The notes below the pieces were generated by a model that saw only the letters and a program-made list of their open reading frames with translations, was not told the DNA's origin and ran no database searches. Position numbers and translations under genes: made by a program. From an uncultured Pelagibacteraceae bacterium (GTDB taxonomy: Bacteria > Pseudomonadota > Alphaproteobacteria > Pelagibacterales > Pelagibacteraceae): a DNA stretch of 58,672 bases. The stretch covers positions 1 through 58,672 of the forward strand of contig CACFZB010000002.1 of assembly GCA_902570715.1 (NCBI GenBank), read 5' to 3'. This document shows, piece after piece, positions 2,503-58,672 of this stretch; within the stretch, counting starts at the first letter, position 1, and every line of letters starts with the position of its first letter.

Positions 2503-3382
2503 TTTTTTGATAATCTGCTTTTCTTACAAAATAAATACCAACACAAACTGCTATTAATGAAATTAATACTTTTATAGTAATTAGCTCTTTTAAGAAAATA
2601 TAACTTAATATTGTACCAAAAATTGGTATTAAATAAGAAACTTGTGACTGAAAAATTAATCCATTATTAACTAAAATTCTAAATCTCAACAACCAAGCAA
2701 TTCCTGTTGAAACTAATCCAAGATAGATTACTGAAACAGTTGAGTCTAATCTAGGATTTATTTCCCATGGTTGCTCAATTAAACTTACTAGAGGAATTAA
2801 AATAATTGTAGCCCAAATTAAAATTGATCCTGTAACATTCTCATTTTTTTTCTTACTAATCTTAAGGGTCAAAACACCTCCAATAACATAGCATGTAGAA
2901 CCTAATAAAATTAATAATGCAGATGTAAAATTATTTTCATCAATCAACAGATTGTCAGAAAATAAAAATATAATTCCTGAAAATCCAATTAATATTCCAA
3001 TTGTTTTAATAAAATTAAATTTTTCATTTTTAGTGTAGAAATGTGCTAGCACCGTTGAGCTTAAAGGTGTTGTGGACATTAATATTGCTGCCAAATTACT
3101 TTGAACTGATTTTACTCCATAAGCAATTAAAAAAAATGGAGCTACTAAATTAATAAAACCTATCATTGCAAACCAATGCCAATCTTTTGAAAATGCTTCA
3201 ATTTTAATTTTCTTATAATAACAAAGAAGTAAAACAGGAATTGCTCCAAAAAAAACTCTTAAAAAAGCTATAGTAACAGGTCCATATGAGTAAGTTGCAA
3301 TCTTAATGTTGAAAAATGCAGAAGCCCAAATTAATGCTAATATTGTAAGTAATAAATAATCAAATAGTTTAGGTTGTCTCAT
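2495..3382 (-). CDS. EamA/DMT-family transporter
   Basis: A 295-residue inner-membrane protein with about ten hydrophobic helices arranged as two EamA repeats. The first begins LLTILALIWASAFFNIKIA and the second is near residues 155-280. This is the drug/metabolite transporter superfamily, whose members mostly export amino acids or small metabolites. The substrate is unknown. Its start overlaps the end of the YbaK-like gene by 4 nt (ATGA), so the two are very likely co-transcribed and translationally coupled. The 3' end overlaps the convergent methyltransferase gene by 8 nt. Confidence 0.88.
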   Translation of the reverse strand: MRQPKLFDYLLLTILALIWASAFFNIKIATYSYGPVTIAFLRVFFGAIPVLLLCYYKKIKIEAFSKDWHWFAMIGFINLVAPFFLIAYGVKSVQSNLAAILMSTTPLSSTVLAHFYTKNEKFNFIKTIGILIGFSGIIFLFSDNLLIDENNFTSALLILLGSTCYVIGGVLTLKISKKKNENVTGSILIWATIILIPLVSLIEQPWEINPRLDSTVSVIYLGLVSTGIAWLLRFRILVNNGLIFQSQVSYLIPIFGTILSYIFLKELITIKVLISLIAVCVGIYFVRKADYQKII

Positions 3383-3858
3383 TCGGAAATTTCCTTAATT
3401 AACCCATTTGTAATTTTTTGCAAATCCTCAAAATTAATCTTAAATACACAATTAGGATGTCCAGCGGCTGCATATAAATTTTCAAATCTTTCTAACGAAT
3501 TATCAATATAAACATCAATCTTATTTAAATGGCCCACTGGTGAAACACCTCCAATTGTAAATCCTGTTATATTTTTAACCTCATCAGCAGAAGCCATTGA
3601 GGCATCTTTAATATTTAAAGTTTTTTTAATCTTATTTAATGACGCTTTTTTATCTCCAGCAATTAAACATAACGTGAATGTATTTTCAGTTTTGAAAAGT
3701 AAACTTTTAACTATTGCTCCAACTTCGCATTTTAATGAGGAAGCTGCCTCCAAGGCTGTTCTAGCTGAAGTATCAAGTAAAATAATATCAAATTTAGGAT
3801 CAAAATTTTTTAGAAATTTTTCAACTCTTTTAACTGGCTCTTTATCTAATGTAGACAT
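3379..3858 (-). CDS. YbaK/EbsC-type aminoacyl-tRNA deacylase
   Basis: A 159-residue protein matching the YbaK/aminoacyl-tRNA-synthetase-associated fold, which hydrolyses mischarged tRNAs (for example Cys-tRNAPro or Ala-tRNAPro). Visible family features are CEVGAIVKSLLFK, with the conserved lysine at residue 51; GDKKASLNKIKK; and GFTIGGVSPVGHLN followed by a GHPNCVFKIN-type segment. It is first in a two-gene unit with the EamA transporter. It diverges from glnA across a 141-nt spacer. Which mischarged tRNA it edits cannot be told from sequence. Confidence 0.88.
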   Translation of the reverse strand: MSTLDKEPVKRVEKFLKNFDPKFDIILLDTSARTALEAASSLKCEVGAIVKSLLFKTENTFTLCLIAGDKKASLNKIKKTLNIKDASMASADEVKNITGFTIGGVSPVGHLNKIDVYIDNSLERFENLYAAAGHPNCVFKINFEDLQKITNGLIKEISE

Positions 3859-3963
3859 AGTTCAACTTAAAATTGTTGTTTATTTATATTGTAAAATACA
3901 CACATATGTAAAAATTGCATAGGTGTTATTAATTAAAAGAGCATTCTTTATCAGTCTTTATTT

Positions 3964-3977
3964 GGTATCACAATACC
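3964..3977 (+). promoter_or_regulatory. Small inverted repeat in the glnA leader
   Basis: GGTAT (3964-3968) and ATACC (3973-3977) form a perfect 5-bp inverted repeat with a CACA loop, 13 nt upstream of the strong glnA Shine-Dalgarno AGGAGAG (3990-3996). It could be a short RNA hairpin or an operator half-site pair, or it could be chance. I see no known riboswitch in the 141-nt spacer and no clear -35/-10 pair. Confidence 0.25.
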
Positions 3978-3999
3978 CGAGATTTATATAGGAGAGAAT

Positions 4000-6750: not shown

Positions 6751-7967
6751 TTTAAATCAAAAATTTTTTTACAATTATTAATTCCTTCATTTAATCTATC
6801 TAAATCATCTTTAGTATTATAAACTCCTAATGAGGCTCTCGCACTTGCTGGAATACCTAATTTGTCATGCAGAATTTGACAACAATGATGACCTGCCCTG
6901 ATTGCAACTCCTGTTTCATCTAAAATAGTTGCAATATCATGTGGATGTACACCTTCAATGGTAAAAGATAATACACCACCTCTATCTTTAGGATTTCCAA
7001 TTAATTTAACAGAATTATTTTTTTGTAAAATTTCTTGACCATATTCAATTAGTTCTTTTTCATGATTAATTATATTTTCAATTCCAATACTCTCAAGAAA
7101 TTTTATTGATTGATCAAAAGCAATTACTTGCGCTGTTGCCATTGTCCCTGCTTCATATTTGTTTGGAAGCTCGCCATATGAAATTCTATCTTTTTTAACC
7201 TCATTAATCATTCCTCCACCACCTTGATAAGGAGGAAGTTGTTCAAGCCATTTCTTTTTTCCATACAAAACACCAAGTCCTGTTGGTCCATACATTTTGT
7301 GACATGATATTGCATAGAAATCACAATCTAGATCTTGCATGTCTAATTTTAAATGTGGTCCACCTTGACAACCATCAACTACTACTATTATTCCTTTTGA
7401 ATGAGCCAACTGAGTAATTTCTTTAATAGGTAAGACAGCGCCAGTGACATTTGAGAGATGAGTTATTGCTATTACTTTAGTTTTATCTGTTATTTCTTTT
7501 TCTATGTTTTCTATGGGAATATCGCCATCATCATTTATTTCAGCAAACTTTATTTTAACATTCTTAGATTTCCTCAAAAAATGCCAGGGCACATAATTTG
7601 AGTGATGTTCCAATTCAGTTATCAAAATTTCATCATTTGGCTCAATAATAGTTTGACCAAGAGTATTTGCTACTAAATTTAAAGCCTCTGTTGCACCTTT
7701 AGTAAAAACAATTTCATTTTTATCTTTAGCATTAATATATTTTTGAACTGAGGATCTTGTATTTTCATATAAATTTGTCGCTGCTACGGCTAAATAATGT
7801 AAACTCCTACCAACATTAGAAAATTGTTTAGAATAAAAGTCATTTATTCTATCTAAAACAATCTTTGGTTTTTGTGATGAATTAGCACTATCTAAATAAA
7901 CTAGATCATTATTCTGAATTTTTTCATCAAAAATTGGAAATTCTTTTTTAATCTTATCTATATTCAT
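6747..7967 (-). CDS. sufS: Cysteine desulfurase SufS
   Basis: A 406-residue pyridoxal-phosphate enzyme that removes sulfur from cysteine and supplies it as a persulfide for Fe-S assembly. The PLP-binding lysine is Lys224 in SCHKMYGPTG. The catalytic cysteine lies in RAGHHCCQ (Cys362, with a neighbouring Cys363). Other signatures are TKGATEALNLVA and ELEHHSNYVPW. The short catalytic loop is of the group II (SufS) type. It overlaps sufD upstream and sufU downstream by 4 nt each, consistent with tight translational coupling. Confidence 0.96.
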   Translation of the reverse strand: MNIDKIKKEFPIFDEKIQNNDLVYLDSANSSQKPKIVLDRINDFYSKQFSNVGRSLHYLAVAATNLYENTRSSVQKYINAKDKNEIVFTKGATEALNLVANTLGQTIIEPNDEILITELEHHSNYVPWHFLRKSKNVKIKFAEINDDGDIPIENIEKEITDKTKVIAITHLSNVTGAVLPIKEITQLAHSKGIIVVVDGCQGGPHLKLDMQDLDCDFYAISCHKMYGPTGLGVLYGKKKWLEQLPPYQGGGGMINEVKKDRISYGELPNKYEAGTMATAQVIAFDQSIKFLESIGIENIINHEKELIEYGQEILQKNNSVKLIGNPKDRGGVLSFTIEGVHPHDIATILDETGVAIRAGHHCCQILHDKLGIPASARASLGVYNTKDDLDRLNEGINNCKKIFDLK

Positions 7968-44785: not shown

Positions 44786-45058
44786 ATGCCTAAAAGACAA
44801 AGTGGAAATAAAAAAAATAAACAAAGTAATTTTTCAAAATTAAGTATTTTTCAACCCAATAAATACAAATTTAAAAAAAGTTGCCCCCTATCAGTGAAAG
44901 GAGCTCCTAAAGTTGATTATAAAAATATTAAATTACTTAAAAAATATGTAACTGAAAATGGTAAAATATTACCATCCAGAATAAGTAATGTTAGTCAAAA
45001 GAAGCAACGAGAATTATCATTGTCAATTAAAAGAGCTAGAAATTTAGCGCTGCTATAA
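44786..45058 (+). CDS. rpsR: 30S ribosomal protein S18
   Basis: A 90-residue S18 with a basic N-terminal extension. The conserved core is [38 protein letters not shown] followed by [17 protein letters not shown], which includes the rRNA-binding arginines. It binds S6 in the 30S platform. It is located between rpsF and rplI, as in most bacteria. Confidence 0.96.
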
Positions 45059-49410: not shown

Positions 49411-49955
49411 TGATTAATAATCTAATAGAATTTTATAATCAAACATCAACTATAGATTTAATTTACTTAATAATCACAATTATGTCTTTAATTAAATGTT
49501 ATAGTAAAGGATTTATTCTGAGTATATTGGCAATGATTAAATGGTTATTAGCCTATATATTAACATTAATCATCTTTCCAAAAGTAAAACCTCATGTAAA
49601 AAATTTGATTGATAATGAATATATTTTAGATGTTGTCCTTGGCGTAAGTATTTTTATCATATTAATATTCCTAATCTTACTTGTAAGTAAAGGAATTAGT
49701 AAAACTGTGAAATATACTGGTCTCGGAAGTTTAGATACAATTTTTGGATTTTTTTTTGGATTCGTTAGATCATATGTTATCGCCGTTTGTGTATTTTCTG
49801 GTGTGCATATCATTTATAATCACGATAAATGGCCAATAAATTCAGATAAATCATACATCTTTCCATATTTGGTAAAAGGTAGTAATTATTTGTTGAAAGA
49901 ATTTCCTGATGAAAAAACATACCAAGACTCAAAAGAAAAAATTGAAGAACTTTAA
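49410..49955 (+). CDS. cvpA: CvpA family membrane protein
   Basis: A 181-residue protein with four hydrophobic segments in the first 130 residues (for example IYLIITIMSLIKCYSKGFILSIL with the family's KG motif, and GLGSLDTIFGFFFGFVRSYVIAV, which has the conserved GxxxRxxGxxFG-type region). CvpA was named for colicin V production in E. coli and is linked to envelope homeostasis. Its exact function is unclear. It precedes purF as in E. coli and overlaps it by 47 nt, an unusually long overlap. Confidence 0.87.
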   Translation: MINNLIEFYNQTSTIDLIYLIITIMSLIKCYSKGFILSILAMIKWLLAYILTLIIFPKVKPHVKNLIDNEYILDVVLGVSIFIILIFLILLVSKGISKTVKYTGLGSLDTIFGFFFGFVRSYVIAVCVFSGVHIIYNHDKWPINSDKSYIFPYLVKGSNYLLKEFPDEKTYQDSKEKIEEL

Positions 49956-51390
49956 TCCAAAGTTAAAAGAAGAATGTGGCATATTTGGGATTAGTAACGC
50001 CAAAGATGCATCTGCTCTGACAGCTCTAGGTCTACACGCACTTCAACATAGAGGTCAAGAAGGTTGTGGTATAGTAACCTTTGATGGAAATCATTATTTT
50101 TCTGAAAAGAGATTTGGTTTAGTTGGAGATAATTTTAACAAAGAAAAAGTTCTAAAAAAATTACAAGGAAACTACGCTATAGGTCACAACAGATACAGCA
50201 CCACTGGAGAAAATGCTCTAAGAAATATCCAGCCCTTTTTTGCCGATACCAATGCTGGAGGTATTGGTGTCGCCCATAATGGTAACTTAACTAACTCCAT
50301 TTCATTAAGAAACAAATTAGTTGATGAAGGAGCTATTTTTTATACAACTTCAGACACTGAAACAATTGTACAATTAATTGCTAAGTCAAAAAGAAAAAAA
50401 ACTATAGACAAAATTGTTGATGCTATTTTTCAAATTCAAGGTGGATATGCACTTGTCATGTTAACTCAAACTTCTTTAATTGGTGTAAGAGATCCTTATG
50501 GAATAAGACCTTTAGTTATAGGAAAATTAAATAATAGTTATGTTTTCGCCTCAGAGACATGTGCTTTAGATATTATTGGTGCAAAATTTATAAGAGAAGT
50601 TGAAAATGGAGAAATTGTTTTTATTGAAAATGATGAATTGAAAAGTATAAAACCTTTTCCTCCCCAAAAATTAAGACCTTGTGTCTTTGAATATATTTAT
50701 TTTTCAAGACCAGATAGTATTTTAAATGGTAAAAGTGCATATGAACATCGTAAAAATTTGGGTATTGAGCTTGCAAAAGAAAATAATTTAGATGCTGATA
50801 TAGTCGTTCCTGTTCCAGACTCTGGAAATGCAGCGGCTCTTGGTTTTGCTCAACATCTTAAAATGAAGTTTGAATTAGGTCTTATTAGAAATCATTATGT
50901 AGGAAGAACTTTTATAGAACCGAGTCAAAAAATAAGAAGTTTAGGAGTGAAACTTAAACTAAATGCAAATCAGTCAACAATTAAAGGAAAAAAAATAATA
51001 CTTATAGATGACTCACTTGTTAGAGGAACTACATCTCATAAAATAATCAAAATGTTATATGATGCAGGAGCTAAAGAAGTTCATGTAAAGATTGCATGCC
51101 CTGAAATAAGATTTCCAGATTTTTATGGCGTGGATACACCTACTAAAAAAGAGTTGTTAGCTGCAAATAAAACAAATAATGAAATTTGTGAGTATATAGG
51201 TGCTAAATCTTTAAACTTTCTAAGCTTAAGCGGTTTGTATAAGGCTATAGGGTTTAATAAAAGAGACGACAATTATCCTCAACTGACAGACCACTATTTT
51301 ACTGGAGATTATCCAGTTAAACCACTTGATGGACTTGGAGATAATAAAGTTGCTCAATTATCTCTTCTCAGCACAGGATCTAATAATTAA
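49909..51390 (+). CDS. purF: Amidophosphoribosyltransferase
   Basis: A 493-residue glutamine PRPP amidotransferase, first committed step of purine synthesis. The class II glutaminase starts at Cys23 (EECGIFGISN) after a 22-residue propeptide that would need removal. IGHNRYSTTGENALRNIQPF and the PRPP loop IILIDDSLVRGTTSHK are clear. The cysteines that bind an Fe-S cluster in the Bacillus enzyme are not all present, as the C-terminal motif reads HYFTGDYPV. The ATG lies 47 nt inside cvpA; an in-frame TTG at 49942 is a possible shorter start. Confidence 0.95.
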   Translation: MKKHTKTQKKKLKNFNPKLKEECGIFGISNAKDASALTALGLHALQHRGQEGCGIVTFDGNHYFSEKRFGLVGDNFNKEKVLKKLQGNYAIGHNRYSTTGENALRNIQPFFADTNAGGIGVAHNGNLTNSISLRNKLVDEGAIFYTTSDTETIVQLIAKSKRKKTIDKIVDAIFQIQGGYALVMLTQTSLIGVRDPYGIRPLVIGKLNNSYVFASETCALDIIGAKFIREVENGEIVFIENDELKSIKPFPPQKLRPCVFEYIYFSRPDSILNGKSAYEHRKNLGIELAKENNLDADIVVPVPDSGNAAALGFAQHLKMKFELGLIRNHYVGRTFIEPSQKIRSLGVKLKLNANQSTIKGKKIILIDDSLVRGTTSHKIIKMLYDAGAKEVHVKIACPEIRFPDFYGVDTPTKKELLAANKTNNEICEYIGAKSLNFLSLSGLYKAIGFNKRDDNYPQLTDHYFTGDYPVKPLDGLGDNKVAQLSLLSTGSNN

Positions 51391-51948
51391 ATGAAAACTG
51401 TTAATTTTACTGAAATGAAAAATGGGACTAAAGATGAATATCTGTTATTGGATGAATATGAGCAAGATTATATTAAAGGAACGGCAGATAGGATTTTAAA
51501 ATTCATGAGAGGGCTCACGCAAACTTTAGAAGGATACAAAATTACAAGATTAGAACACTCTCTTCAAACTGCAACTAGAGCTTATAATGATAAAGCTGAT
51601 GAGGAAATGGTAGTTGCGGCTTTATTACATGATATAGGTGATGAATTAGCACCCTTGAATCATTCAGAGTATGCTGCTGCAGTACTGAAACCTTATGTAA
51701 GTAAAAAAACTCATTGGATAGTTCAAAAACATGGTGAGTTTCAAATGTATTATTATGCTCATCATTTAGGTAAAAATAAAAATCAGAGAGATAAATATAA
51801 AGATCATGAATATTATAATGATGCAGTAAAATTTTGTGAAAAATGGGATCAAGCTTCATTTGATCCAAATTTTAAAAGTATGACTTTGGAAGACTTTGCT
51901 CCGATGGTTAAAAAGATATTTTCTAGAAAACCATATTCTTTACTTTAA
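51391..51948 (+). CDS. HD-domain protein resembling PhnZ/TmpB diiron oxygenases
   Basis: A 185-residue HD-domain protein. It aligns by eye over most of its length with PhnZ (recalled): RLEHSLQTATRA, DEEMVVAALLHDIGD, NHSEYAAAVLKPYVSKKTHWIVQKH and FCEKWDQASFD. The six metal ligands of that family appear to be kept: His56, His80, Asp81, His91, His114 and Asp153. PhnZ's substrate-gating Tyr and Glu just before the first histidine are replaced (TLEGYKITRLEH), so the substrate probably differs. No phosphonate genes are nearby. It starts right after the purF stop. Hydrolase activity is the alternative. Confidence 0.8.
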   Translation: MKTVNFTEMKNGTKDEYLLLDEYEQDYIKGTADRILKFMRGLTQTLEGYKITRLEHSLQTATRAYNDKADEEMVVAALLHDIGDELAPLNHSEYAAAVLKPYVSKKTHWIVQKHGEFQMYYYAHHLGKNKNQRDKYKDHEYYNDAVKFCEKWDQASFDPNFKSMTLEDFAPMVKKIFSRKPYSLL

Positions 51949-51978: not shown

Positions 51979-53274
51979 ATGATTAATACAAAAGATATAG
52001 TTATTGATTACTTTAAATCTGGCATAAAAAGTAAAAAAGATTTCAAAATTGGTGTTGAACATGAAAAGTTTTTATTTAATAACCAAAATAATAAAAGAGT
52101 TGATTATCAAAAAATAAAAGAAATGTTTTCAGCCTTGTTAGAATTTGGCTGGAATCCAATTTTAGAAAAAGAAAATGTAATTGGATTAAATAAAGGGGGA
52201 AAAAATATTACTTTAGAACCTGGTAATCAAATTGAATTATCCGGAGATAAACTAAATCATATTCATGAAGCTTGTGCCGAGTCCCATGATTATTTATTTG
52301 AATTAAAACAAGTCACAAAAAAACTTAATATTAGTATTGTAAGTGCTGGATTTGATCCAATATCAAAACTTCAAGATATTCCAAACAATCCTAAACAAAG
52401 ATATAAGCTTATGACTAAAGATATGCCCCCCAGGGGTGAGTTGAGTTTAGATATGATGTATCGAACTTGCGGTACACAATTGAATATTGATTACAATTCT
52501 GAAACTGATTTTATGAAAAAATTTAGAATCGTAAATTCAATTGTTCCTATTTCGATAGCTTTATTTGCAAACTCTTCAATTGTAGAAAAAAAGAAAAGTA
52601 ATTATTTATCTTATCGTTCAAGAGTTTGGCAAAATACTGCTCGAGGAGGATTGCCTAAATTATTTTTAGAAAATTTAGATTTTGAAAAATATTCGGACTT
52701 TATTATTGATTTTCCGATTTTATTTATTCATCACAAAGAAAAATATTTATCAGGAAAAAAATATAAGTTTAAACATTTCATGGATGGTAAAATAAATGAA
52801 ATTAATAATCGCCTACCAAATGAAAATGATTTAGCCACACATTTAAGCACAATTTTTACTGAAAACAGATTAAAAAAATATATTGAATTAAGATCAATGG
52901 ATACTTGCGGCTGGGATTGCTTATGTTCAGGTCCAGCATTTTATATTGGAATGTTATATGGAAACCTAGATGAAGTTTATGAAATAATATCCAAATGGGA
53001 TAAAAACAAAATAATAAATGCATATCTTGAAGCTCCTCAAAAAGGTTTTAATACCCAATTAATGGGAAAAGACCTTCTTTATTGGTCATCAACTTTATTA
53101 GATATATCTAGAAAAGGATTAGAAAATAGAGATGTTCTGAATAAAAGTGGCAAAAATGAATCTTTATTTTTAAATCATTTACAAAAAGTAATTGATAATA
53201 AAACAACTAATGCAGATCAAATGATTAGTAAATTTTCTAAAAATAAAGATTTAACTGAATTATATGACAAATAA
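51979..53274 (+). CDS. gshA: Glutamate-cysteine ligase (plant/alphaproteobacterial type)
   Basis: A 431-residue ligase making gamma-glutamylcysteine, the first step of glutathione synthesis. It belongs to the type also found in plants: FKIGVEHEKFLF, LEPGNQIELSGD, PRGELSLDMMYRTCGTQLNIDYNSE and RVWQNTARGGLP are diagnostic, and YIELRSMDTCGWDCLCSGPAF is near the end. Cysteines at 158 and near 310 could take part in redox control known in plant enzymes, but this is unproven here. It overlaps gshB by 11 nt. Confidence 0.93.
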   Translation: MINTKDIVIDYFKSGIKSKKDFKIGVEHEKFLFNNQNNKRVDYQKIKEMFSALLEFGWNPILEKENVIGLNKGGKNITLEPGNQIELSGDKLNHIHEACAESHDYLFELKQVTKKLNISIVSAGFDPISKLQDIPNNPKQRYKLMTKDMPPRGELSLDMMYRTCGTQLNIDYNSETDFMKKFRIVNSIVPISIALFANSSIVEKKKSNYLSYRSRVWQNTARGGLPKLFLENLDFEKYSDFIIDFPILFIHHKEKYLSGKKYKFKHFMDGKINEINNRLPNENDLATHLSTIFTENRLKKYIELRSMDTCGWDCLCSGPAFYIGMLYGNLDEVYEIISKWDKNKIINAYLEAPQKGFNTQLMGKDLLYWSSTLLDISRKGLENRDVLNKSGKNESLFLNHLQKVIDNKTTNADQMISKFSKNKDLTELYDK

Positions 53275-54190
53275 GATTGTTGCAATTCAAGGTAACCATC
53301 CATCAAAACTAAATCCTATAACAGATACAAGTATTTTTTTAGCGAATGAAATTCAAAAAAAAAATTATAAAATTTTTTATTATGAACCTAAAAATCTATC
53401 TATTTTAAATTCTCAAGTTTTTGCGAATGGTTTTTTTATAAAATTTGATTATAGTAAAAAAAAATTTTTTAAAATATTAAAAAAAAGAAAATTAAATCTT
53501 AAAGAATGTAAATTTATTTTAATACGACAAGACCCACCTTTTAATTTGGAATACATTTCCTCAACTTATATTCTTGACTCAATAAAAGATAAAGTAAGAA
53601 TTATTAATGATCCTACCTCAATAAGAAATATTTCAGAAAAACTTTACTCTAGTAGGTATCAATATTTTATGCCCAGCACAATTTTTACGCAAGATATTTA
53701 TGAAATTAAAAAATTTTTACAAAAATACAATAAGGTAATTATCAAACCTATTCATGGTTTTAGTGGAAACAATATACATTTACTTACCAAATTTGATTCA
53801 AAATTTATTACCAAATTTATTCAAAAACATAATTTCATAATGTGTCAAAAATACTTACCAAAAATTTACAAAGGAGATAAACGTGTGTTTTTAATTAATG
53901 GTAAAATTAGTGGAGCCATTTCAAGAATTCCCAAAAAAGGATCATTTTTAAGCAATCTGAGTAAGGGCGCTACAGCGGTGAAAATTAAATTAACCAAGAA
54001 AGAAATTAAAATTTCTAAATTAATTGCAAAACAATTAAAAAAAGAAAAAATATTCTTTGCAGGTATTGATTTTATTGATCAAAAACTCAATGGAGATATT
54101 AATGTTACTTCCCCTACTGGATTAAAAACTCTATATGATCTATCAAAAATAAATTTGGCAATAACTTTTTGGAAAGAACTCAAAGCATGA
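53264..54190 (+). CDS. gshB: Glutathione synthetase
   Basis: A 308-residue ATP-grasp enzyme that adds glycine to gamma-glutamylcysteine. Visible: ILIRQDPPFNLEYISSTYIL, NDPTSIRNISEKLYSSRYQYFMPST, VIIKPIHGFSGNNIHLL, GDKRVFLINGKISGAISRIP and the C-terminal DINVTSPTGLKTLYDLS (the usual EINVTSPTG motif with D for E). Together with gshA it gives a complete two-step glutathione pathway in one operon. The stop overlaps the next gene by 4 nt (ATGA). Confidence 0.93.
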   Translation: MTNKIVAIQGNHPSKLNPITDTSIFLANEIQKKNYKIFYYEPKNLSILNSQVFANGFFIKFDYSKKKFFKILKKRKLNLKECKFILIRQDPPFNLEYISSTYILDSIKDKVRIINDPTSIRNISEKLYSSRYQYFMPSTIFTQDIYEIKKFLQKYNKVIIKPIHGFSGNNIHLLTKFDSKFITKFIQKHNFIMCQKYLPKIYKGDKRVFLINGKISGAISRIPKKGSFLSNLSKGATAVKIKLTKKEIKISKLIAKQLKKEKIFFAGIDFIDQKLNGDINVTSPTGLKTLYDLSKINLAITFWKELKA

Positions 54191-57962: not shown

Positions 57963-58672
57963 TTATTGTTTAGGAAAATAGTCTTTTAAATTACCTTCTC
58001 TATAAACATCTGCTGTACAACAATGAAGGCCACCACCAAATGCATATGCATCTCTTAATTCAACAGGAACAACTTCCATACCAAGTTTGTCAAGTTGTTC
58101 TGCTTGGTACTTTTCACTTTTTTCTACACAAACAGTTTTTGAATCTAAAACTAATACATTCATTGAAAGCCAAACAGATGAATAACAAAGAGGTGGTGGC
58201 TCGTTATGAGCAGGCTGAGCAGCATCAATAATTTCCCATCCATTGTTTTCAAATAGTTTTCTTTGATCTTTTGGTAATCTTCTTTGAGGATTGTTAATTA
58301 TTAGTCCCTCTTTAATTGGAGTAAAAGTTGCATCAATGTGTATCGGATATGGATCTCCAGGAAAGTTAACAGCATGAACTCTGTGATCTTTATAATGTCT
58401 TTTTAACCAATCTATACCTTTTAAATTTGTTGTAAAACCATGCTGAACTACTAAGTCTTTTCCAAATCTCAAAACATCAGCAGCATCAAATAATGGTTCT
58501 TCTTCAGTTGTTACAAAAAATTTATCTTCAGTCCATTTGAGTCTTTTTTGAATTCCAATTTTATCAGATAAATAATCCTTTCGATAATCAGCATTTGTTA
58601 ATCTTGGCTTAGGAGCAGACTCGTGCCTCATATTTGGATCGCTATTATAATACTCTTTCAAGAGAGGTCGGT
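57963..58672 (-). CDS. Glycine amidinotransferase-like protein (5' part missing)
   Basis: The frame is open to the right window edge, so the N-terminal part is missing. A TTG at 58661 is not the start, because RPLL continues upstream. The 236 visible residues resemble arginine:glycine amidinotransferase: RPLLKEYYNSDPNMRHE, LFDAADVLRFGKDL with the catalytic aspartate region, HIDATFTPI with the catalytic histidine and GGGLHCCTADVYREG with the catalytic cysteine. Homologues transfer an amidino group from arginine to glycine or another amine. The acceptor in this organism is unknown. Confidence 0.87.
   Translation of the reverse strand, partial: RPLLKEYYNSDPNMRHESAPKPRLTNADYRKDYLSDKIGIQKRLKWTEDKFFVTTEEEPLFDAADVLRFGKDLVVQHGFTTNLKGIDWLKRHYKDHRVHAVNFPGDPYPIHIDATFTPIKEGLIINNPQRRLPKDQRKLFENNGWEIIDAAQPAHNEPPPLCYSSVWLSMNVLVLDSKTVCVEKSEKYQAEQLDKLGMEVVPVELRDAYAFGGGLHCCTADVYREGNLKDYFPKQ

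Follow-up and report, generated by a model that had tools for sequence, protein, structure and literature searches.

A PhnZ/TmpB-like HD-domain protein of SAR11 bacteria and its possible action after a 2OG hydroxylase on amino or quaternary-amine compounds

Three HD-domain oxygenases, MIOX, PhnZ and TmpB, are listed in a 2020 review, which gives the four-electron cleavage of C-C or C-P bonds as the chemistry of this group (PMC8177086). PhnZ is a 2-amino-1-hydroxyethylphosphonate oxygenase. TmpB of Leisingera caerulea is encoded in a two-gene cassette together with TmpA, a BBOX-like 2OG hydroxylase; the pair acts on 2-trimethylaminoethylphosphonate, and glycine betaine is made by TmpB (PMC10574752). 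Further PhnY/PhnZ variants are described in the same paper, all of them acting on phosphonates (PMC10574752). In PhnZ and TmpB the active site is gated by a YxxE loop (PMC8177086). MIOX, which splits a C-C bond in a sugar substrate, does not stand in tandem with a 2OG hydroxylase (PMC8177086).

Two further systems are relevant here. The known route from trimethyllysine to carnitine uses an aldolase after the hydroxylation step (PMC11016064; PMC8085414). In trimethyllysine hydroxylase, an enzyme of eukaryotic carnitine synthesis, Asp231 is homologous to Asn191 of BBOX and is thought to bind the alpha-ammonium group; D231, N334 and the cage residues W221, Y217 and Y234 have been found important by mutation (PMC7764450). 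In addition, an Arctic SAR11 genomic island has been reported to carry BBOX, carnitine dehydrogenase, BKACE, ALDH, HADH, GPDP and a DMT transporter (PMC12421898).

Here, we compare these systems with an HD-domain gene in a window of 58,672 nucleotides, the whole stretch of DNA analysed, from an uncultured Pelagibacteraceae bacterium. A literature search of titles and abstracts, with most subscription papers outside its coverage, returned no description of this HD subfamily or of its pairing with a 2OG oxygenase.

The HD gene, its predicted fold and its conserved residues

The open reading frame at 51391-51948 on the forward strand begins with ATG, encodes 185 amino acids and is a real gene. 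We annotate its product as an HD-domain protein of an unnamed subfamily, predicted to be a diiron oxygenase. A search of the window's own genome (G000, 55% complete) gave no second copy. Among Pfam models only the generic HD domain exceeded its cut-off (25.8 bits against 22). The best NCBIfam models were those of the phosphonate oxygenases, namely Phn-HD (40.5 bits), TmpB (39.8 bits) and PhnZ1 (34.5 bits), all far below the curated cut-offs (TIGR03276, 214.6; NF049941, 300; NF052439, 300). Single-sequence similarity to PhnZ and TmpB is confined to residues 45-84.

An AF2 model, built from the window protein and 34 SAR11 relatives, has a mean pLDDT of 92.8 and a pTM of 0.88. Every one of the ten Foldseek matches in the PDB at E<=0.001 is a PhnZ or TmpB chain, with no hydrolase among them. 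Comparison with the PhnZ and TmpB structures, which the original prediction had proposed as a check, places PhnZ nearest to the model (Z 18.2, rmsd 2.7, 154 aligned residues, 25% identity), then TmpB (Z 17.5, rmsd 3.4, 156 aligned) and, third among solved folds, MIOX (Z 11.9, rmsd 3.3, 140 aligned, about 16% identity). The best other chain is PPX/GppA at Z 8.5; thus PhnZ, TmpB and MIOX outrank all other chains listed, a ranking of predicted structures that speaks to fold and not to function.

The metal ligands are complete. His56, within a LEHSLQ motif (51556-51558), His80 and Asp81 of the HD motif (51628-51633), His91 (51661-51663), His114 (51730-51732) and Asp153 (51847-51849), all on the forward strand, do not vary in any of 18 diverse relatives or in any of 87 aligned rows (69 of them distinct). 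The rows come from tblastn (E<=1e-4, matched span above 120 residues; 79 rows and 8 more) and contain no Phn-HD protein; the length filter also took out a broken gene in one locus (L277, see below). When a profile of the 18 relatives was aligned by hhalign with three SAR11 Phn-HD proteins (probability 96.9, E 1.8e-10, 144 columns, residues 33-177), all six ligands paired with conserved His or Asp residues. The match to PhnZ proposed from the sequence alone therefore holds at each of the six places, and the LEHSLQ motif, then called nearly identical, is in fact identical in PhnZ. The six-ligand motif is common to dinuclear HD hydrolases too, so that an oxygenase cannot be told from the ligands alone. 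YqeK is given as one dinuclear HD protein (PMC8177086).

At the place of the YxxE gating loop, the window protein has L46-E47-G48-Y49 (51526-51537, forward strand). As had been predicted, the gating Tyr and Glu of PhnZ are altered, Y24 corresponding to L46 and E27 to Y49, and the loop is thus changed. Position 49 is Tyr in 65 of 79 rows and Phe in 9; Tyr and Glu occur together at the two gating places in 1 of 79 rows and not in the window protein. That row (locus L158, genome G332) belongs to tandem HD-family genes at 2681-3214 and 3452-3985, one copy with Y/E and the other with F/M, which possibly form a heteromeric pair; genome G452 likewise has a tandem HD pair (L293).

Three further residues separate the subfamily from Phn-HD proteins. 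Asp84 (51640-51642, forward strand; D in 74/79 rows) replaces the His of HDxGH, Gln118 (51742-51744, forward strand; Q in 79/79 rows and in the 8 more) the Lys of HVxAKRYL, and Glu150 (51838-51840, forward strand; E in 61/79 rows) the Arg of RKxD, each of the replaced residues being present in 3 of 3 Phn-HD proteins. We take this His, Lys and Arg to be phosphonate contacts, corresponding to H62, K108 and R158 of PhnZ. From the HD motif to the following ligand His, the window protein is also about ten residues shorter than the three Phn-HD proteins. Its ligands and predicted fold are those of an HD oxygenase, yet it is no PhnZ or TmpB, because the cut-offs, the gating loop and the conserved residues all fail.

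Pairing with a 2OG oxygenase

The partner gene of the HD gene lies elsewhere in the window genome, on contig 17 (1321-2421), and could not be seen by the original prediction because the two are unlinked there; the pairing is new here. The partner is an Fe(II)/2OG oxygenase of about 368 amino acids, related to TmpA and butyrobetaine hydroxylase; among solved structures, it matches TmpA (6npb) and butyrobetaine dioxygenase best. In NCBIfam, two SAR11 partners (L021 and L029) score 331 and 347 bits against TmpA, 273 and 272 against butyrobetaine dioxygenase and 198 and 205 against trimethyllysine dioxygenase, below all three curated cut-offs (400, 414.75 and 268.3, respectively).

Among 118 genomes of the SAR11 family, 39 contain a full-length HD relative (41 matches at E<=1e-3, of which that in G011 is a fragment and that in G082 is weak). 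A full match to the 2OG oxygenase with at least 51% identity is present in 33 of the same genomes, and all 33 contain the HD gene. The two genes adjoin or overlap in 16 of the 33, with the matches overlapping by a few bases in 14 of these 16, and are apart in the other 17. The six genomes with HD and no full 2OG match (G006, G020 with a 61% fragment, G038, G073, G092 and G116) are all 57-83% complete. The 45 good genomes (completeness of 90% or more, contamination of 5% or less) divide into 16 with both genes, 29 with neither and none with a single one (Fisher p 1.5e-12, common descent ignored); a seventeenth 2OG match, in G042, is a 36% paralogue.

The association extends beyond the family. 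HD matches occur in 112 of 147 genomes sampled from the window's order, of which 106 have both genes, 6 HD only, 2 2OG only (G585 and G586) and 33 neither (p 2e-24, common descent ignored); in this count the 2OG type was told from its paralogues by score (at least 341 against at most 315 bits) and not by residues, and a few matches are fragments. Within the window genus, among the rows listed, the corresponding figures are 62, 6, 2 and 6 (p 1e-4, common descent ignored), and in 16 genomes of this genus compared the two genes stand on separate contigs or at a long distance from each other. A 2OG gene immediately precedes HD in the genomes of 27 relatives, and in family f174 the genes adjoin in all three loci read.

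Active-site residues of the partner were read from an alignment in human BBOX numbering. The Asp-type partners have F177, F181, D191, Y194, N205 and Ser or Asn at 292. Where the 2OG gene immediately precedes HD, Asp occupies the place of Asn191 in 26 of 27 genomes (all but that of L277); among the 43 2OG rows of more than 300 amino acids, it does so in 37. The six rows without it are 374-375-residue paralogues in L071, L076, L079 and L080, a TmpA-like protein in L079, and the protein of L129, whose gene is divergent from HD. Trimethyllysine hydroxylase shares this Asp with the partner, which nevertheless scores higher against TmpA. The cage of Asp-type rows is F-F-Y, against Tyr-Trp-Tyr (Y217, W221, Y234) in trimethyllysine dioxygenase, and so differs from it; the TmpA sequence also has F at the place of the cage Trp. 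The partner therefore has the amine-type residue and lacks the full cage.

Sampling of the window's class gave HD relatives in 111 of 385 genomes (E<=1e-6) and 2OG profile matches in 61 of 385 (E<=1e-50). The SAR11-like pattern (Phe or Trp, Phe, Asp, Tyr) was read in 17 genomes among the 30 2OG loci listed; G275 and G441, with Asp present and a different cage, were left out of this set. An HD match of any kind occurs in 16 of the 17 (p 1.3e-8, common descent ignored), directly downstream of the 2OG gene in 8, and an HD copy of the same part of the tree in 13. G238, G341 and G452 have the Asp-type 2OG alongside distant HD copies only (32-49% identity; L151), and G147 has it with no HD match. 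In this last genome an enolase-superfamily open reading frame (L269, 7865-9013) follows the Asp-type 2OG gene, where sister genomes carry HD. Conversely, 95 of the 111 HD-positive class genomes are without a 2OG of the verified Asp pattern, among the 2OG loci listed, which implies that much of the wider HD family works with something else.

A first tree had suggested one clean clade for the HD proteins of Asp-type genomes. It held no G238 or G452 copies, grouped the G341 copy elsewhere and left the second G378 copy unlabelled, and the single clade was rejected by a tree of 72 rows. Here, a branch of 34 rows (support 85/79) contains 10 HD copies from Asp-type genomes and 24 others, and 14 rows with adjacent 2OG, as well as the SAR11 rows, lie outside it. 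The Asp-type label is clustered on this tree (14 changes, counting all four groups, against 30.6 in shuffles) and does not form one clade, which slightly lowers the odds of the reading favoured below.

Other 2OG oxygenases were also found beside HD proteins. In three different families a divergent HD gene lies directly beside an isopenicillin-N-synthase-like (IPNS-like) 2OG gene (L144, 6101-7704; L151, 5898-7551; L153, 7039-8644), a second kind of 2OG-HD pair. Three loci have HD near a 2OG that best matches a BBOX-like paralogue: L129, where the genes diverge, L278, where 1.2 kb lies between them, and L277. In the last of these (genome G396) the HD match at 6777-7105, right behind the BBOX-like gene, runs over two frames, which may reflect a pseudogene or a fault in the assembly.

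Gene neighbourhoods and competing explanations

In the window, purF (49909-51390, forward strand; TIGR01134, 494 bits, cut-off 350) lies directly upstream of HD, and gshA-gshB (51979-54190, forward strand; PF04107, PF02955) follows in the same direction after a gap of 30 bases, so that the gene does lead into gshA-gshB as described from the sequence. PurF is upstream of HD in 73 of 80 SAR11 loci, where it is a neighbour not thought to be a functional partner; the 2OG gene has this place in 5. Among the genes looked for, GshA is next after HD in 42 of the 80 loci and not next in 38, some contigs ending there, and a DUF255 protein (PF03190) is next in 22. In 10 of these loci (L214-L216, L218-L220, L225, L229, L233 and L237) the DUF255 gene, thioredoxin-like, stands between HD and gshA, and in 12 further loci it follows HD with no gshA seen within the locus. 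A search of 67 SAR11 and other-lineage loci found gshA or gshB in four purF-type SAR11 loci, plus a weak GshB match in L135. The position ahead of gshA is thus a trait of some SAR11 only; the gshAB neighbourhood, whose conservation across SAR11 the original prediction had wanted examined, is not conserved and is probably incidental. Phosphonate genes are absent nearby, as had been noted: none of 15 proteins scanned between 43.4 and 58.7 kb (leaving out a small open reading frame at 44786-45058) belongs to a phosphonate family. An open reading frame at 57963-58661 on the reverse strand gives a weak arginine-deiminase match (23.3 bits, cut-off 22.8).

Outside the window the pair has other neighbours. 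In L137 (family f174) a run of ALDH, acetoacetate-CoA ligase (741 bits, cut-off 521) and 2OG ends with HD, and the divergent side carries BKACE (PF05853, 325 bits, cut-off 24.8), L-carnitine dehydrogenase (372 bits, under its cut-off of 414) and a BBOX-like frame truncated by the locus end (113 of 415). Acetoacetate-CoA ligase (763 bits), 2OG and HD recur in L138, and L119 has HD, a BKACE sharing 63% identity with the L137 one, and carnitine dehydrogenase (344 of 414). Neighbours of the pair in SAR11 subgroups are genes for ProX/ProW, BHMT-like (PF02574), DMGDH-like (a label given here from FAD-oxidase and GcvT models), BADH-like ALDH, HIBADH-like and GDPD proteins, the NCBIfam matches of these neighbours all being under cut-off; relatives of the ALDH (36% identical) and HIBADH (62%) stand near 2OG-HD again in G470. 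Many gene names are common to these surroundings and the Arctic SAR11 island, whereas the 17-gene list in the figure legend for that island names no HD protein (PMC12421898). In L272 and L279 the Asp-type 2OG lies amid sugar-acid-type genes, by reading of the sequences. BKACE was considered as an obligatory companion of HD and rejected: of the 147 order genomes 74 carry it, many genomes of the window genus have HD and no BKACE, and four genomes have BKACE and no HD match (G499, G500, G558 and G585). This patchiness makes the carnitine link clear in some lineages only. A HisN-like phosphatase beside 2OG in many SAR11 loci was likewise rejected as a substrate clue (182 bits of a histidinol-phosphatase cut-off of 275).

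The nearest described precedent would make the pair a divergent TmpA/TmpB, turning 2-trimethylaminoethylphosphonate or a related compound into glycine betaine and phosphate. TmpA is the best score of the 2OG protein and its best PDB match, Phn-HD and TmpB are the best models of the HD protein, and betaine genes occur in several loci, betaine being what TmpB makes (PMC10574752). The TmpA/TmpB system and the present one also have in common a cassette of two genes with a BBOX-like 2OG hydroxylase, and an HD protein with the six ligands. A plain phosphonate role is nevertheless improbable, since both family cut-offs (331 of 400 bits; 40 of 215-300) and the conserved residues fail, the His, Lys and Arg of Phn-HD being replaced and the place of Asn191 being taken by Asp in the partner. 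Moreover, a separate Phn-HD-like protein exists in two SAR11 genomes examined. These proteins, at 3354-3899 in L033 (171.8 bits, within 3 kb of the new HD) and 5411-5962 in L039 (201.2 bits), score below the TIGR03276 cut-off of 214.6, and a third in L040 aligns with both. Alternatively, the HD protein could be a metal-dependent phosphohydrolase or another hydrolase, with a metabolic and not a sequential link to the 2OG oxygenase. This we regard as rather unlikely, for the structural ranking puts PhnZ and TmpB (Z 17-18) and MIOX (11.9) above the best other chain (8.5), Foldseek gave no hydrolase at E<=0.001, and tight pairing with 2OG oxygenases recurs, including the IPNS-like ones; the Pfam HD match and the six-ligand motif, found in some hydrolases, fit it all the same, and most known HD proteins are phosphohydrolases (PMC8177086).

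Carnitine offers a different substrate. The 2OG protein would be a butyrobetaine-type hydroxylase, and HD would split L-carnitine, or a different 3-hydroxy onium acid, into glycine betaine and glyoxylate. In favour of this, L119 and L137 have HD next to BKACE and L-carnitine dehydrogenase, and in L129, L277 and L278 an HD gene adjoins or lies near a 2OG whose best match is the BBOX-like paralogue; in SAR11, BHMT-like and DMGDH-like genes, potential users of betaine, are close by. We still hold this route to be unlikely: Asp stands in for Asn191 in the usual partner (26/27 adjacent cases), which has Ser or Asn at 292, and L137 already possesses carnitine dehydrogenase and BKACE, another route from carnitine. 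Action on a thiol or glutathione-related compound, as suggested originally by the place before gshA-gshB, and fitted by the co-directional purF-HD-gshA-gshB order with its 30-base gap and by the 42 loci with GshA next, was dropped as very improbable on the 38 loci in which GshA is not next and the four-of-67 count in other arrangements and lineages.

A proposed reaction and its significance

From the predicted fold, ligands, pairing, co-occurrence, residue swaps and gene context computed here, we infer that the HD protein would use iron and O2 and cleave a hydroxylated amino or quaternary-amine compound, in which case its mode of action would resemble that of PhnZ and TmpB. It is moderately likely that the subfamily is a sister of PhnZ/TmpB and acts second, as a diiron oxygenase, after a dedicated 2OG hydroxylase. 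The suggestion of an oxygenase with another substrate, such as a quaternary amine, thus survives as the best reading, given the PhnZ/TmpB/MIOX-like fold, the missed cut-offs and the pairing with a TmpA-like 2OG amid betaine and carnitine genes in several lineages; its thiol component does not.

By the logic of TmpA and TmpB, the 2OG hydroxylase would place an OH group on a carbon of an amino or quaternary-amine compound. In the HD enzyme, the new OH would next be bound at Fe1 and O2 at Fe2; removal of the carbinol hydrogen would lead to cleavage of the adjacent bond in a four-electron oxidation, the bond being C-C as in MIOX, not C-P. Our favourite substrate, N-epsilon-trimethyllysine, is tentative: 3-hydroxytrimethyllysine is the simplest single candidate for the second step because of the alpha-ammonium-type residue, the betaine context and the carnitine genes in some lineages. 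Its conversion by HD to gamma-butyrobetaine, glyoxylate and ammonia is possible and unproven; cleavage of C2-C3 would yield gamma-butyrobetaine, and hydrolysis of an imine the other two products. The step would replace the PLP-dependent aldolase and feed carnitine and glycine betaine. The bond cut would be that cut by hydroxytrimethyllysine aldolase, from which the HD enzyme differs in being no PLP enzyme and in its predicted products, an acid and glyoxylate, as against an aldehyde and glycine. The broader proposal of an aldolase-free trimethyllysine route to gamma-butyrobetaine in SAR11 and other Alphaproteobacteria, by a TMLH-like 2OG and a C2-C3-splitting HD diiron oxygenase, is put forward as rather doubtful.

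Several observations weigh against the favoured reading. Some hydrolases share the six-ligand motif; the cage of the partner is F-F-Y and its trimethyllysine dioxygenase score of 198 is under the cut-off of 268; ALDH in several clusters fits the aldolase product better than a direct acid product; and the Asp-type 2OG occurs without HD (G147), with distant HD only (G238, G341 and G452) and in sugar-acid-like surroundings (L272 and L279).

If the reading is correct, the known chemistry of the HD fold would be widened by a large sister subfamily that pairs with 2OG hydroxylases of a non-phosphonate kind, and breaking down quaternary amines in place of phosphonates would be a function new to the fold. 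A 2OG and HD gene pair alone would then be no proof of phosphonate degradation. If trimethyllysine is indeed the substrate, the PhnZ/TmpB branch would gain a C-C-cleaving member and bacteria a trimethyllysine-to-carnitine pathway. Finally, a function would be given to a gene that is carried by many SAR11 bacteria.
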